Origin: Pelosinus propionicus DSM 13327
Lineage (GTDB): Bacteria; Bacillota; Negativicutes; DSM-13327
NCBI RefSeq assembly: GCF_900114615.1
Contig: NZ_FOTS01000056.1
Span: forward strand, 1 to 32,150
DNA length: 32,150 nucleotides
Reading direction: 5' to 3'
In this document: in pieces, positions 4,111-18,789 of the stretch
Layout: the number at the start of each line of letters is the position of its first letter
How positions within the stretch are numbered: position 1 is the stretch's first letter
Made by a program: the position numbers and the translations under genes
Notes under the pieces: model-generated
Seen by the model: only the letters and a program-made list of their open reading frames with translations
Told to the model about the DNA's origin: nothing
The model's database searches: none

Positions 4111-5748
4111 TTAATATCCTATTGCAAAGTAAAATATATCACTAGATGGTCCAGCACTATCTTCGTCAATCGTTAAACGAATTTGACTGCTAGAAATAAT
4201 GTCAGCATAACAACTAGAATTACCTGTGTAATAGTTACTGCCTCTTAGTGTCGCAGACGGTACTAGAAAAGCATTTGGGAACGTAATTGGTAAAGTTACT
4301 GCTATAGTAGCATTACCAACCGTATTTACATATCTGCCCCATTGTAAAATTAATCCATTACTCAGTTTTTGATAGCCGTTACCGGAAAACAAATGAGCTG
4401 AATCGTAAGCTGTGGCCGCTACGGTTGTTTCGTCTGTAGTAGCTATTTGTTTCCAAGGATTCCAAACGCCTGATTTTTTCGTCCTAAACCACATCCTAGG
4501 CGTTGTAGAACTGTTGTACTCTATTGCTAGTTGTGTCGCATGATTACCGTCATACGCATTATGCAATATCGTGCAATCACTAATGCCACCAGGAAGTGCC
4601 CCGCCAGTATTATTACAATAATACAAACCACTTTTATCCAATAAATCTGCCGTATGCACTCCAGAGTTATATGTTCCTATCCCATAGTCCGTAATCATGT
4701 TTGCCGTAGCTACTTGTTGCCATGCTGACCAAGTGCCACTATCTCCATTATATGTTCTTCTCCAAGCAGTTAATGGATTAGCGTTTCCACTACTATAATA
4801 TAAATCAAAATATTGCACTATTCGTGCGCTACTACCACCATGATTTCTAACCATTCCAACTTGTCCTGATGCATTTGCCAACGTCCCATAAGGTGTATTT
4901 AAAACCGCACCTGATCCTGTATCAAAATGCCAGTAGGAGTCGGCGATTGTAAAATTGTTTAAATCTCTATTTGTAGGTGTAGTTGAAGACTTTGTAAAAC
5001 TGGTATCGGTAGTAGGTATTTCTTTCCATGCTGACCATGTGCCTCCCTGATTCTTACGAGTATAAATGTTTCCAGTTACTGCACTAGTAGCGTGTTGGCT
5101 TACATAATTTGTTCGAGTTGATGTCCCATTTATGACATTAAGATAGAAGATATGATTAGCGTCTCCTGCGGGCAAAGGTCCATTTATAGCAAGAGCGCTA
5201 GCGCCTATAACATAATACTTCCCATTTTTGATTAATGTGTTCCAATCAGTAGCTGTGATTTCAGTAGAGTAATCAAAAGAAGATAATGCTGCTTTTTCAG
5301 ATGCCAGCTCCGCTATAGCAGCCTGTACATTTGTTGCTGCTACATCTCCTGTGGCAACACTGCTTATTGCAGAGGCTGTATGCGCCCCACTGGTAGCGTT
5401 TATGTGCGTATTAGCTGCTTCTAGCGTTGTTGCTGGTGCTGTATACCATGCACTTTTACCTGTTATTTGCTTGATCATATTGCCAAGCTTACTGAGTAAA
5501 TTGGTTAAACTTCCTGCTCCTGCAGTTGCCGTGACGGTATCTGAAATGGTTCGATTGCCAATTCGGTCGTCGTCAATTGATTTTTCTGATTCTCCTTTTA
5601 AATATTTGACAGCCTGGGACGTCCGATTAAAAAACCAGTTAAAATATTCTGCTGGTGGTTTTTCTTCTGGCTTCCATCCTTCATCTTTCTTTGCCTGTGT
5701 CGGCTCAACCCCAGGCTGATTCCATTCTAAATCATCGGGATATGACAT
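4111..5748 (-). CDS. Phage tail fibre / receptor-binding protein with pyocin-knob repeats
   Basis: The 545-residue protein opens with a baseplate-attachment segment typical of tail fibres (DLEWNQPGVEPTQAKKDEGW, then FNWFFNRTSQAVKYL). A linker with TSGAHTASAISS... follows. Three pyocin-knob-like units then occur, each ending in a W-x-x-W-K/Q pattern: about 158-245 (GGTWSAWKEI), 258-348 (SGTWSAWQQV) and 353-440 (SGVWNPWKQI). The C-terminal 90 residues (LILQWGRYV...ITFPNAF...FYFAIGY) match the gp53-like tail-fibre C-terminal domain that contacts host surface sugars. It ends with the aromatic FYFAIGY tip normal for the family, so this gene looks intact, unlike its neighbours. Confidence 0.9.
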   Translation of the reverse strand: MSYPDDLEWNQPGVEPTQAKKDEGWKPEEKPPAEYFNWFFNRTSQAVKYLKGESEKSIDDDRIGNRTISDTVTATAGAGSLTNLLSKLGNMIKQITGKSAWYTAPATTLEAANTHINATSGAHTASAISSVATGDVAATNVQAAIAELASEKAALSSFDYSTEITATDWNTLIKNGKYYVIGASALAINGPLPAGDANHIFYLNVINGTSTRTNYVSQHATSAVTGNIYTRKNQGGTWSAWKEIPTTDTSFTKSSTTPTNRDLNNFTIADSYWHFDTGSGAVLNTPYGTLANASGQVGMVRNHGGSSARIVQYFDLYYSSGNANPLTAWRRTYNGDSGTWSAWQQVATANMITDYGIGTYNSGVHTADLLDKSGLYYCNNTGGALPGGISDCTILHNAYDGNHATQLAIEYNSSTTPRMWFRTKKSGVWNPWKQIATTDETTVAATAYDSAHLFSGNGYQKLSNGLILQWGRYVNTVGNATIAVTLPITFPNAFLVPSATLRGSNYYTGNSSCYADIISSSQIRLTIDEDSAGPSSDIFYFAIGY

Positions 5749-5760
5749 CGTCTCAACTCC

Positions 5761-6429
5761 TTATTTTATATATAGACCACCGAAAAAGCCGCCTGTATCT
5801 CGGCTATTATTTGAGAATCCTTTTGCACTATCAAATTCAGGTGAAGGATACCTCAGACTGCCACCTTGATCCGGATTAATCAGACTTGAAAATCCATACC
5901 CTTCTTCAAATTCTGATTGCCTTGGTAAACTACTAAACTGAAAACCGCCGGCATAATATAATTCACTGCCAAATTCAAAGGTACCGTTTACACGCAGCCT
6001 CCAATCCAAATGAGCAGGCATGGTCCAGTAAAGAACCTTATCAATGGTCTCAAAGCTGGTCTTCATGCCAGTGAAAAGGAACTCCACCAGGTACTCTGAA
6101 AAATGCTGATCGATCTCTACACCATTTGCAAATGGCTCTAGAAATCGAATGAATTCTTGCCTAGTGGTCGGACTTCTAAGCCTCAGTTTGGACAATAGTC
6201 TTGCTCGGCGCTGTTCCAAAGTATCTCCTGCTGCAGTCGTAACAGCAAAGATTTCTTCATAGGTTGGTATCTTCCAAGTGGCCTTTTGAATGGTGAACTG
6301 GCCTTCAACATCTTGGATATTTGCCTCCAGCGTGTCCAGCTCTTTCCCTTCTGTTTCCATGATCACGTTCATTTGCCTGGAATCACGATAATAATCAGGA
6401 AGATAATCCTTCATTTTACTAGATTTCAC
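5761..6429 (-). CDS. xkdU: Baseplate protein, YmfQ/XkdU family (DUF2313)
   Basis: The first 150 residues are the YmfQ (DUF2313) domain: LPDYYRDSRQMNVIMETEGKEL near the N-terminus, then the characteristic TLEQRRARLLSKLRLRSPTTRQEF (about 70-93). Members are baseplate wedge proteins of contractile-tail phages and lie between baseplate J and the tail fibre, as here. The C-terminal 70 residues (SELYYAGGFQFSSLPRQSEFEEGYGF, Gly/Phe/Ser-rich, ending GGFFGGLYIK) are a low-complexity extension. The start overlaps the end of the preceding baseplate gene by 11 bases, indicating translational coupling. Confidence 0.85.
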   Translation of the reverse strand: MKSSKMKDYLPDYYRDSRQMNVIMETEGKELDTLEANIQDVEGQFTIQKATWKIPTYEEIFAVTTAAGDTLEQRRARLLSKLRLRSPTTRQEFIRFLEPFANGVEIDQHFSEYLVEFLFTGMKTSFETIDKVLYWTMPAHLDWRLRVNGTFEFGSELYYAGGFQFSSLPRQSEFEEGYGFSSLINPDQGGSLRYPSPEFDSAKGFSNNSRDTGGFFGGLYIK

Positions 6430-14132: not shown

Positions 14133-14246
14133 ATGGGTTTTGGATTTGGAGGACGTAATGGTTTCGGTGGCTCCGGCTGCATTATTATTATAATCATCAT
14201 TTTATTACTTTTCTGCTGCGATAATAACGATTTTTCCTCTTGCTAA
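14133..14246 (+). CDS. YjcZ-like glycine-rich small membrane protein, 37 residues
   Basis: ATG 14133 has AAAGGAGG ideally spaced upstream. The product MGFGFGGRNGFGGSG is followed by C, seven Ile, three Leu, then FCCDNNDFSSC. This Gly-rich start plus a single hydrophobic helix is the layout of the YjcZ/sporulation-associated tiny membrane proteins of spore formers. The run of seven isoleucines and four cysteines is unusual. It is plus-strand, has its own terminator at 14282-14315 and interrupts the minus-strand late region, so it is cargo. Role unknown; link to sporulation is inferred from the family only. Confidence 0.7.
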   Translation: MGFGFGGRNGFGGSGCIIIIIIILLLFCCDNNDFSSC

Positions 14247-14653: not shown

Positions 14654-15232
14654 TTACACTACTATCCTATCATAAAAACCGGCCCCATGTGCGTCCATTT
14701 TGCGTCCACTTTGCTTTTGGAAGCAAATCGTAACATATTTTATAACTTTATAATGAATGGATCTTATACGTTTTTCAGTACAATGAAACATATCTGCTAT
14801 ACTACGATTTGATCTACGCCATGAATATTTCATTTCTAAAATACGCTTTTCCTCTTCAGTCAATCGGTTAAAAGCTATGTCAAATGGCGCCATCCATTCT
14901 CGTATCTCATGGATTCGGTATCTAATGCTAATTAATCTCTTATATTTATCTGGCAGAAGCTGCTGTGCTTTGCGTGTTGCGCTCTCTAACTTTTCTATCA
15001 TGGAAGCCAAGGGATCTCTACAATCACTACTACCACCTGGTGAATAACCATATTTTGCTGTCATTTTTGGGGTGTCCATTATACATTTTATTGTTTCTTC
15101 CATCTCACGGATATCACCTAACAAAATGACCTCAATACCTCGCAATTGCTCTAATCTAGACTGTTTATGATAATATTTTACAAGCACTTTTCCTATTAGT
15201 GTTTCCCATGGCTTTACTCTTTTCGTTTGCAT
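14654..15232 (-). CDS. Sigma-like phage late transcription regulator (ArpU/RinA type)
   Basis: Start at ATG 15232 after GGGGTGGGAAT; an earlier start at 15277 lacks a ribosome site and crosses a hairpin. The 192-residue protein is helical and ends with a sigma-70 region 4-type helix-turn-helix: RLTEEEKRILEMKYSWRRSN, RSIADMFHCTEKRIRSIHYK (about residues 123-163). ArpU/RinA-type proteins switch on phage late genes and are encoded at this spot, between replication and packaging genes. Likely target: the promoter region of the operon starting near 14100. Confidence 0.75.
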   Translation of the reverse strand: MQTKRVKPWETLIGKVLVKYYHKQSRLEQLRGIEVILLGDIREMEETIKCIMDTPKMTAKYGYSPGGSSDCRDPLASMIEKLESATRKAQQLLPDKYKRLISIRYRIHEIREWMAPFDIAFNRLTEEEKRILEMKYSWRRSNRSIADMFHCTEKRIRSIHYKVIKYVTICFQKQSGRKMDAHGAGFYDRIVV

Positions 15233-15246
15233 ATTCCCACCCCACT

Positions 15247-15294
15247 CATAAATATAAAATGCCGACACTCCTAGCAATGCCAGATAGTGTCGGC
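15247..15294 (-). terminator. Hairpin after the DUF2292 gene, possible terminator
   Basis: GCCGACACT (15261-15269) and AGTGTCGGC (15286-15294), perfect 9-bp stem with a 16-base loop, followed on the minus strand by ATTTTATATTTATG. Confidence 0.45.
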
Positions 15295-15468: not shown

Positions 15469-15624
15469 CCTTATCTCCTTTAAGGTGCTGTCTCCTTTTT
15501 ATCAATCTGGATACTATAAAGATTTAGAAACTAAATTGATAACCGCTTAATCACCTTTATTTACCATAGATCATATTATGTATAGATAAGTTTTCTATTG
15601 GTGAGTTAGGAGGTAATTATAAAG

Positions 15625-15885
15625 ATGGGCTATCGCAAATGGGGTCACCCTGAAATTGAGGACTGGAAAGAAGATCCTAATTCAAGAAAAAAATTATATG
15701 CATCAGATTTATGGGAATTCGGCCTAGGCTGCTACCCTATTGACTCTTGTTATAATTGGTATTGCTGGCCTAATGATAGTTGCTGTCCTAGACGATCTTG
15801 TTGCCCTAGACGGGGTTGTTGGCCTAGGAGAAATTGCTGGCCTAGACAAAGTTGCTGGCCCAGACAAGATTGCTGGCCGCGCTAG
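15625..15885 (+). CDS. Cys/Trp/Pro/Arg hexapeptide-repeat protein (novel cargo)
   Basis: ATG 15625 follows TAGGAGGT. The 86-residue protein has a hydrophilic N-terminus (MGYRKWGHPEIEDWKEDPN), a hinge (LWEFGLGCYPIDSCYNWY) and then seven tandem six-residue units from residue 47: CWPNDS, CCPRRS, CCPRRG, CWPRRN, CWPRQS, CWPRQD, CWPR-end. There is no signal peptide or membrane segment. The repeat is visible in DNA as 18-bp units. The repeats have many thiols, aromatic and positive groups, which suits metal binding, disulphide cross-linking or a coat-like structure; I know no named family. It is plus-strand, with a terminator at 15906, and lies between minus-strand late-regulation genes. Confidence 0.75.
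   Translation: MGYRKWGHPEIEDWKEDPNSRKKLYASDLWEFGLGCYPIDSCYNWYCWPNDSCCPRRSCCPRRGCWPRRNCWPRQSCWPRQDCWPR
15763..15885 (+). repeat. 18-bp coding tandem repeat, 6.8 copies
   Basis: Units start at 15763, 15781, 15799, 15817, 15835, 15853 and 15871; each begins TGYTG and encodes C-(W/C)-P-(R/N)-(R/Q/D)-x. Units 5 and 6 are the most alike (TGCTGGCCTAGACAAAGT and TGCTGGCCCAGACAAGAT), which suggests recent copy growth. Confidence 0.9.
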
Positions 15886-15905
15886 TTTCGCATTTACTTA
15901 TTTTT

Positions 15906-15932
15906 TATTAAAAAGCCTTCGGGCTTTTTTTA
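15906..15932. terminator. Bidirectional terminator between convergent genes
   Basis: AAAAAGCC-TTCG-GGCTTTTTTT: a stable UUCG-type tetraloop with T tracts on both strands. It serves the repeat protein (plus) and the LysM gene (minus). Confidence 0.9.
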
Positions 15933-15953: not shown

Positions 15954-16175
15954 TCACTTCCACCGATTTATTTCTAAAACCAGACCCGCCCACACATCAC
16001 TCTCACCAATCACCTCATAATTCAATTCTCTGATCCCTTCACGAAACTCCGCAATCTGTCGAGGATCATCGCCCTGGCAATATTGTTCAGCGATTGACTG
16101 CAGCGTATCACCAGCGTTTACTGTATACTGCATTGTAAATAAGATCAATCCCACCATAAACTGTTTCACTCTCAA
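15954..16175 (-). CDS. Small LysM-domain protein with an N-terminal membrane anchor
   Basis: TTG start at 16175 with AAGGAGATGTC upstream. Residues 1-16 (MRVKQFMVGLILFTMQ) form a short hydrophobic anchor; the remainder is a single LysM domain, YTVNAGDTLQSIAEQYC ... WAGLVLEINRW, which binds peptidoglycan sugars. Membrane anchor plus LysM resembles the cell-division inhibitor YneA, which acts during SOS, but the protein is shorter (73 residues) and the resemblance may be only architectural. It is the last gene before the convergent terminator. Confidence 0.65.
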   Translation of the reverse strand: MRVKQFMVGLILFTMQYTVNAGDTLQSIAEQYCQGDDPRQIAEFREGIRELNYEVIGESDVWAGLVLEINRWK

Positions 16176-18132: not shown

Positions 18133-18789
18133 TTATTTTATTGCTTCCATAGCCCATGATGCAGGCTTTTTCTTACAATCACAGGTAACGGCTTCATCCC
18201 TCGTATTTATGCCGTTGTTAAAGGGCACTTGAGTAAGATACCATCCTTGGCCATTGCATTTTGGACACACAGAATCAATTTTCGAGTTATCCACAACCAT
18301 AGCCTCGCGCGCGCTATTATTTATATTTATATTTATAGTTTTGTCTACGTCTAGTCTAGTATAAGAATGTGCTACAGGTGTGCCTACACCTGTGCCTAGT
18401 GGTATGCCTACTACTGTGCCTACATCTATGCCTACAGGTGTGCCTAGTACTGTGCCTAAATTCTGACACTCAGAAAAATTATCCACAGGCACTTCTTGTT
18501 TCTTTTCTTCCAAAAGAGAAATCATACGATAACTTCCTGCTTGGTTTGATTTGCCTTTTTTATATTCAATTAATCCATATTGAATTAGCGAATTCCTTGT
18601 GGATTCGACCCCTTGTCGGGACAATCCGGTAAGTAGTTGAACAGTTTGATTGGGCGCAGTAAACCATTCTTTCCAGCCGATCATATTGTTTATGCTCATT
18701 AACATGTACCATAAAGCAATTACCCCTGTAGAAGGTCGGTTTATCATTGTCCAATCCCTAAACGCATTCAACTCTCGCATATAGTTCAT
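18133..18789 (-). CDS. Phage replisome organiser-like protein with tetrapeptide repeat and zinc finger
   Basis: ATG 18789 follows AGGTGGTGG. Residues 1-90 (LNAFRDWTMINRPSTGVIAL, MIGWKEWFTAPNQTVQLLTG, LSRQGVESTRNSLIQYGLIEYKKGK) form the winged-helix domain of DnaD-like replisome organisers, which bind origin DNA and help load the helicase. A linker holds seven tetrapeptides of type (V/L)G(T/I)x, encoded by a 12-bp repeat. The C-terminus has a CPKCNGQGW ... CDC zinc-binding motif. The repeat linker may act as a flexible spacer. Length 218. Confidence 0.75.
   Translation of the reverse strand: MNYMRELNAFRDWTMINRPSTGVIALWYMLMSINNMIGWKEWFTAPNQTVQLLTGLSRQGVESTRNSLIQYGLIEYKKGKSNQAGSYRMISLLEEKKQEVPVDNFSECQNLGTVLGTPVGIDVGTVVGIPLGTGVGTPVAHSYTRLDVDKTINININNSAREAMVVDNSKIDSVCPKCNGQGWYLTQVPFNNGINTRDEAVTCDCKKKPASWAMEAIK
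18377..18460 (-). repeat. 12-bp tandem repeat, 7 copies, in the replisome organiser gene
   Basis: Units share TGCCTA at positions 5-10 on the plus strand, for example GGTGTGCCTACA and ACTGTGCCTAAA. They encode LGTV, LGTP, VGID, VGTV, VGIP, LGTG, VGTP. Confidence 0.9.

Follow-up and report, generated by a model that had tools for sequence, protein, structure and literature searches.

Cysteine-rich proteins such as CotY/ExsY, CdeC and CsxA work in the spore coat or exosporium through disulphides, CdeC and CdeM being the cysteine-rich exosporium proteins of C. difficile, and Streptomyces makes morphogenetic lanthipeptides of the SapB type. Three-residue cyclophanes, as in triceptide-like chemistry, use an aromatic-x-Arg spacing. 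The SigK promoter consensus of B. subtilis consists of AC, 16-17 nt and CATANNNTA. According to the available part of a 2012 survey, spore coat formation differs substantially between Bacilli and Clostridia, many coat proteins are lineage-specific, and there was no completely sequenced Negativicutes spore former to study (PMC3533761). Sporulation genes can also be borne by phages, and the accessible part of one source gives phage sigma factors as an example (PMC9429907).

The window analysed here (the whole stretch of 32,150 bases) is one entire contig, C103, of a 5.4 Mb genome, and it contains a small gene for a cysteine-rich repeat protein within a prophage. We interpret the product, a member of a new family in Negativicutes, as a spore protein that is made late by the mother cell and would be modified by a radical enzyme, the prophage carrying an extra substrate. 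This overall reading is moderately probable from the sequence comparisons described below.

The repeat-protein gene

The features of the locus are the following.

15553-15582, + strand: late-sporulation promoter-like element, AC (15553-15554), 17 nt and CATATTATGTA (15572-15582), with the exact CATATTATGTA beginning at 15572 in the sequence
15608-15614, + strand: ribosome-binding site AGGAGGT, 10 nt before the ATG (sequence)
15625-15885, + strand: 86-codon ATG open reading frame of the repeat protein (ORF list and translation)
15625-15729, + strand: leader part, residues 1-35, with the family motif W6-GHPEIED-W14 at 15640-15666 (translation and leader profile)
15730-15882, + strand: Cys-Pro repeat part, residues 36-86, with eight C-x-P, seven of them C(W/C)P units at 15763-15882 (translation, Tandem Repeats Finder and unit count)
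15883-15885, + strand: stop codon of the 86-codon gene (translation)
15910-15929, + strand: Rho-independent terminator-like hairpin, probably bidirectional, AAAAAGCC-TTCG-GGCTTTTT with a T-rich tail (hairpin search)

The window gene is real, looks coding and is under purifying selection. Comparison with its closest relative, at locus L038, gives a dN of 0.072 and a dS of 0.313 over 80 ungapped codons (dN/dS about 0.23), and comparison with L012 gives 0.21 and 0.81 over 86 codons (dN/dS about 0.26). An earlier sequence-only reading of this DNA had given the gene its own ribosome site and a bidirectional terminator. The first is confirmed by AGGAGGT at 15608-15614, and the A-run/T-run symmetry of the hairpin at 15910-15929 fits bidirectional use, one terminator-like hairpin being found against a mean of 0.4 in shuffles. 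The same reading described seven C(W/C)PRRx units. Seven C(W/C)P units are indeed present, starting at residues 47, 53, 59, 65, 71, 77 and 83, but the first is CWPNDS, the last stops at CWPR, P-R occurs in six units, and the residues after P-R vary. That reading overlooked an eighth C-x-P, CYP at residue 36, and it mentioned neither the conserved leader motif nor the promoter-like element at 15553-15582, nor any of the family to which the protein belongs.

Tandem Repeats Finder scores the repeat region at 54-122 at periods 18, 36 and 54. A recent expansion of the array, proposed earlier from near-identical 18-bp neighbours, is not supported, because adjacent 18-bp units are identical at just 10, 13, 12, 13 and 15 of 18 bases. 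Searches of Pfam, NCBIfam, PHROGs and PADLOC with the window protein gave no match, and none of the first three assigns it to a known coat family. Its predicted structure shows no confident fold (mean pLDDT 34.7), and the search for solved relatives returned one chance-level match, a thermal hysteresis protein (E 0.33).

A multigene family in Negativicutes

Sequence comparison places the window protein in a multigene family of Negativicutes whose members are dispersed; no curated model of this family was found. The earlier statement that no family with this repeat is known holds for the curated collections, but the protein turns out to be a member of a class-wide multigene family, and an orphan cargo gene is ruled out by the relatives in its own genome and across Negativicutes. 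The own genome has five family genes, four of them besides the window copy (on contigs C69, C49, C79 and C92). A search of 60 genomes (the own genome and relatives) with the window protein at E <= 0.01 gave matches in 18, among them every one of the 8 genomes of the own genus and the two further genomes of its taxonomic family. With a profile of 17 aligned members (E <= 1e-5), the family was found in 45 of 220 Negativicutes genomes, with up to 11 matches per genome, some of which are several matches within one gene. Literature searches, in which subscription papers were only partly covered, found nothing resembling the family described.

Members typically start with a few tens of residues, mostly acidic, that contain the leader motif W-(D/E)-x-P-E-(I/M)-x-(D/E)-W (short form W-x-x-PEI-x-(D/E)-W), followed by a run of 4-26 C-x-P units, whose spacing is mostly 6, 5 or 4 residues (494, 275 and 118 cases in 100 proteins). 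A leader-like motif is present in 94 of 103 ORFs that were picked solely for six or more C-x-P, from loci themselves fetched with the family profile. Among the other nine, L079, L101, L121, L142 and L176 carry the leader motif with one changed residue, L148 and L152 have the acidic start only, L112 is a broken copy, and L209 is unrelated. The L112 gene (G003, P. fermentans JBW45) adjoins the enzyme described below and is broken by a frame change inside the repeats. Four other family members gave nothing above cut-off in Pfam, and the members tested against curated coat families (Pfam, NCBIfam) gave no match. At locus L074, from another Negativicutes family, a zinc-ribbon-like protein with a low-complexity FGGFGG/RFFPF tail is encoded directly 3' of a family gene (5455-5862), and the curated collections gave nothing above cut-off for it.

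A radical SAM/SPASM enzyme beside family genes

In the own genome, the family gene on C79 lies 45 nt 3' of the gene for a 410-residue radical SAM/SPASM protein; the window gene itself is not beside this enzyme, being on a different contig. The enzyme-adjoining copies examined sit on the chromosome next to genes that, by eye, we take to be tig, clpP and clpX. The own enzyme matches PF04055 with 68 bits (cut-off 29.5) and PF13186 with 32.9 bits (cut-off 21.5), and its C106-C110-C113 (CxxxCxxC) and C-terminal SPASM cysteines are invariant in all four enzymes aligned. Among solved structures, the maturase of the sporulation killing factor, SkfB, is closest to it. The N-termini of two enzymes resemble the PqqD/RRE leader-binding domain (PF05402) only weakly, at E 0.064 and 0.08 and with about 14 bits, below the cut-off of 23.4. 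None of three enzymes tested against the NCBIfam maturases exceeded a cut-off; TIGR04193, which spans the N-terminus and the SPASM region, is the best NCBIfam match for two of the three, and the three score 119.2, 106.9 and 99 bits against its cut-off of 175. The ATP-grasp partner, TIGR04192, is above its cut-off in none of 13 genomes and below it in G012, a genome without the enzyme.

A family gene adjoins 38 of the 51 enzyme copies: 34 genes lie just 3' (one of them, in G003, broken), 3 lie just 5', and 1 is degenerate. Many of the pairs overlap or stand less than 10 nt apart. The other 13 copies have no family neighbour within the 1 to 1.3 kb examined on each side, the contigs of L154 and L155 starting so close to the enzyme that the 5' side is not visible. 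The arrangement of a RiPP precursor, a leader and a variable core beside a maturase, is thus found in the family at 38 of the enzyme copies, and for these operon copies an enzyme-substrate relation appears well supported. In two genomes, a gene for a Coat_F-domain protein stands a few genes from the enzyme.

Distribution of the family, the enzyme and spoIVA

Across the 220 Negativicutes genomes, spoIVA is present in 52, the enzyme in 50 and the repeat family in 45, and the three largely coincide, with 43-47 genomes common to pairs. The family is limited to spore formers in that 44 of its 45 genomes have spoIVA, the exception being G004, which is 83% complete. spoIVA is also present in 47 of the 50 enzyme genomes (exceptions G004, G043, 93% complete, and G122, 65%), and the enzyme is present in 43 of the 45 family genomes (exceptions G007 and G134, 85 and 87% complete). 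Eight spoIVA genomes have no match to the family profile, and one of these, G028, has a family-like gene adjoining its enzyme, indicating that the profile misses some members. Similarly, no family match was obtained in 7 of the 50 enzyme genomes, among which G028 and G043 do have a family-like gene adjoining the enzyme that escaped the profile. The enzyme was not found in five spoIVA genomes (G007, G014, G032, G048 and G134), and G014, G032 and G048 are near-complete genomes that have neither the enzyme nor the family.

Fisher p-values for the co-occurrence are below 1e-34; since the genomes are related, the count per taxonomic family is preferred, and among the 19 taxonomic families with any of the three, spoIVA is present in 19, the enzyme in 18 and the repeat family in 15. 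Among 299 phylum-wide genomes, the enzyme was found in the own genome only, and the repeat family gave two matches, in the own genome and in G306. The latter is rejected as an occurrence of the family outside Negativicutes, being a chance match to an FPRT-repeat frame without cysteine in a proline-glycine-rich gene. Taken with the promoters below, these distributions make it very probable that the family and the window gene are linked to spores.

Putative late-sporulation promoters

The window gene has a promoter-like element of the SigK type, AC-N17-CATATTATG, which is one base, the last, off the consensus CATANNNTA, and the end of CATATTATGTA is 42 nt upstream of the start codon. CATATTATGTA occurs 16 times in the own genome, compared with 4 times for the reversed control, and the genes behind it include three family genes and the enzyme gene; several other sites are without a clear gene. 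The C69 copy has no CATATTATG within 110 nt upstream. In the wider set, 53 of the 72 dispersed family genes have AC-N16/17-CATANNNT in their upstream 130 nt, against a mean of 1.4 for shuffles, and the other 19 lack it. The enzyme genes have it in 39 of 49 cases and the control ORFs, among which there may be enzyme genes, in 16 of 379. The 28 family genes immediately 3' of the enzyme all lack it, as a transcript shared with the enzyme would lead one to expect.

According to the available part of the source, SigK controls yabG in B. subtilis, and in C. difficile both SigE and SigK do so (PMC10681294). This gene, found in 17 of 26 genomes, was used as an independent yardstick. CATANNAT, which is like the -10 element, is upstream of yabG in 17 of 17 cases and AC at a spacing of 16/17 nt in only 5 of 17, so that the SigK assignment leans on the -10 element. 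For spoIVA, the full promoter match is found in 0 of 10 genes and CATANNNT alone in 3 of 10. Either way, the element upstream of the window gene appears to be of the mother-cell type, SigE control also being possible. The spore-related role guessed at earlier fits the spoIVA co-occurrence, the promoter statistics and the yabG comparison.

Other observations on late-sporulation genes concern sigK and small proteins. In 6 of the 8 genus genomes (G000, G001 and G003-G006), sigK is in two pieces, several kb apart on one contig (G000:C78:180450-180866 and 186134-186385), as if interrupted by a skin-like element that needs excision for SigK activity. Small Cys/His-rich proteins of the CHHHKKCSKC... 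type are encoded behind a CATATTATGTA element on C83 of the own genome (L050/L051) and close to a family gene at L066 (8829-9014), the latter having no Pfam or NCBIfam match. Both are possibly further late-sporulation Cys-rich proteins.

The window protein as a candidate substrate

With a leader profile from the 28 enzyme-adjoining proteins, 65 of the 72 dispersed leaders are recovered (E <= 0.01), against none of 1440 shuffled sequences. This comparison is partly circular in that the members were picked with a loose leader pattern, but the ORFs picked solely for repeats, from loci fetched with the family profile, agree with it. From the shared leader and the presence of the enzyme in nearly all family genomes, we infer that the leader is an address tag read in trans. 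The leader could instead be a tag for coat assembly, which is compatible with enzyme recognition. The family is likely to be a substrate of the enzyme, and the window copy is reasonably likely to be modified in trans by the chromosomal enzyme.

The x residue of C-x-P differs between the two groups. In the 428 units of enzyme-adjoining proteins, it is N in 85, F in 70, R in 62, Y in 50 and W in 49, with S also frequent; in the 669 units of dispersed proteins, it is F in 229, W in 172 and Y in 116, that is, F, W or Y in 517, and R follows P in 479. The C-x-P frame is common to both groups, which favours chemistry at the cysteine, namely a thioether as in SkfB or the ranthisynthases, and we tentatively propose thioethers on the C-x-P cysteines.

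In the strongest alternative, the Cys-rich protein is made late in sporulation and acts in the coat or exosporium by means of disulphides, without modification, and the enzyme modifies only the family member that adjoins it. The spore link is independent of the enzyme, and the different make-up at x in the enzyme-adjoining and dispersed units also speaks for this explanation. However, the leader motif is common to both kinds of protein, 43 of 45 family genomes have the enzyme, and the three near-complete spoIVA genomes without the enzyme are also without the family, and we consider an unmodified disulphide protein rather unlikely. A metal-binding or disulphide role had been suggested earlier for the cysteines; modification by an enzyme is now the likelier role for them, given a class-wide family with a radical SAM/SPASM enzyme adjoining one member.

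If the family is modified, the chemistry could also be C-C cyclophanes that join the aromatic residue to the Arg of (F/W/Y)-P-R and leave the cysteines unused, as in triceptides. The frequent aromatic residues at x and the R after P in the dispersed units give just the aromatic-x-Arg spacing, but the enzyme-adjoining proteins, which are the most certain substrates, often have N, R or S at x, the C-x-P frame is the feature that both groups share, and the closest solved relative, SkfB, is a thioether enzyme. Given the enzyme-adjoining proteins, the cyclophane is less likely as the general chemistry and possible for dispersed members, and overall we regard it as rather improbable.

A radical SAM/SPASM enzyme with a leader-core precursor is also what would be expected of an antimicrobial or signalling peptide that the mother cell secretes, either a bacteriocin-type RiPP such as SkfA or a ranthipeptide, and SkfA is, in the available part of the source, a cannibalistic factor at the transition to spores (PMC8326336). 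In four enzyme loci, however, no exporter, immunity gene, leader protease or extra peptidase was recognised by eye, apparent ClpP and Lon aside; each protein has 4-26 C-x-P, and genomes have several dispersed genes, of which most carry a promoter of the late mother-cell type, which makes a secreted peptide improbable. The missing exporter in these loci and the late mother-cell timing suggest that the product is most likely retained by the mother cell and deposited on the spore, and a location of the protein in the coat seems fairly likely.

The prophage setting

Nine of ten window proteins scanned match PHROGs, all except the repeat protein, which agrees with the earlier description of the gene as prophage cargo. 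The families matched include tail, tape-measure, baseplate and endolysin proteins, repressor/transcription regulators and a DNA methyltransferase. The window gene, on the + strand, is opposite to the flanking prophage genes at 14654-15277 and 15954-16175. With the window protein as query, the only IMG/VR match is a 29.4 kb record, which represents the same prophage and encodes the identical protein, and two short patterns searched there found no relatives of the enzyme. The question raised earlier of whether C-x-P repeats lie in prophages has a mixed answer. When 16 distinct family loci (3 to 19 kb each) were compared with the window, L242, L067, L235, L066 and L069 shared several or phage-type genes, L233, L238 and L061 had only an amidase/endolysin relative in common with it, and eight had nothing else in common. 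The closest relative (L038/L233, 88% identical) has no clear prophage around it, an amidase-like gene lying about 11 kb off.

A phage-specific family is rejected as the main reading, as no match was found in phage (50,697 records) or plasmid records and the one IMG/VR record is the same prophage. That the protein serves the phage, as a virion part or an anti-host factor with no spore role, is very improbable: the gene does lie inside a prophage, but the searches of phage records, the eight of 16 loci with no other gene in common with the prophage, the host-type late-sporulation promoter and the strand opposite to the flanking prophage genes all argue against it.

A second small gene of the window (14133-14246, + strand) encodes a 37-residue MGFGFGG...IIIIIIILLLFCC protein with its own ribosome site, which we presume to be similar to small sporulation proteins of the YjcZ type, and CATACAAT upstream of it presumably resembles a SigE -10 element. 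The protein has no curated match, apart from one sub-cut-off Pfam match that looks like chance. Nine matches lie in the own genome, which is one of 15 genomes with matches among the 21 searched. In G001, G003 and G006, the three least fragmented genomes compared, 6 of 19 copies lie within 5 kb of C-x-P genes, against 0.37 expected by circular shift, and none of 10,000 shifts reaches 6; in the own genome, 1 of 5 copies is near a repeat gene, which is the window pair itself. The prophage therefore seems to harbour two small host-type genes with a tendency to move as a pair. Elsewhere in the window, a tandem repeat with a 12-bp period (18368-18458) lies within the ORF 18133-18789 and encodes repeats of the GT-V-G type.

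Proposed model

In the model that we propose, the window gene would be read late in sporulation from its SigK-type promoter, as the sequence-level evidence suggests. The acidic leader with W-x-x-PEI-x-(D/E)-W would then dock on one chromosomal radical SAM/SPASM enzyme, which would be co-transcribed with one family member and serve the dispersed members, presumably including the prophage copy, in trans. The C-x-P repeats would be modified, most likely by thioethers at the cysteines, which are constant in the units along with proline, and the modified proteins would be built into the spore coat or an outer layer as hardened, cross-linked material. The prophage copy would be a moron, by which a lysogen could alter or strengthen the spore that also carries the phage. 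Put in its broadest form, Negativicutes spores would be hardened by a radical-SAM-modified multi-repeat RiPP as building material. One enzyme would serve a scattered family, and prophages would add further substrates, thereby changing the spore they travel in. We place this proposal slightly short of an even chance.

The family is a class-wide candidate spore component for Negativicutes, with an enzyme that is open to deletion or co-expression. If the enzyme modifies the repeats, a modified repeat protein would serve as structural material with many similar sites per chain, which would interest both radical SAM chemistry and biomaterials research. With the prophage copy, it becomes directly testable whether a phage alters host spores.

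Comparison with known systems

Like SkfA/SkfB and other sactipeptide and ranthipeptide systems, the family places a SPASM enzyme beside a Cys-containing, leader-bearing substrate. It differs from the SkfA/SkfB type in its tandem C-x-P, in one enzyme apparently acting for several dispersed genes and in the lack of an exporter recognised in the four loci. The likeness to the grasp-with-spasm maturases (TIGR04193) lies in the best NCBIfam match of two of the three enzymes, and the differences are the scores of 99-119 bits against 175 and the lack of a TIGR04192 partner. With the Cys-rich exosporium and coat proteins (CotY/ExsY, CsxA, C. difficile), as far as the available parts of the sources describe them, the family shares the link to spores, the richness in cysteine and the lack of a signal peptide evident by eye; it differs by its C-x-P design, its leader, its radical SAM enzyme and the lack of a curated coat match for the members tested. 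Like SapB, it would be a modified ribosomal peptide with a structural role in development, and SapB differs in having another chemistry and in being secreted and short. Finally, the window gene resembles the phage sigma factors, within what the accessible part of that source covers, in being a phage gene that would act on host sporulation, and here the phage would supply a putative structural substrate, not a regulator.
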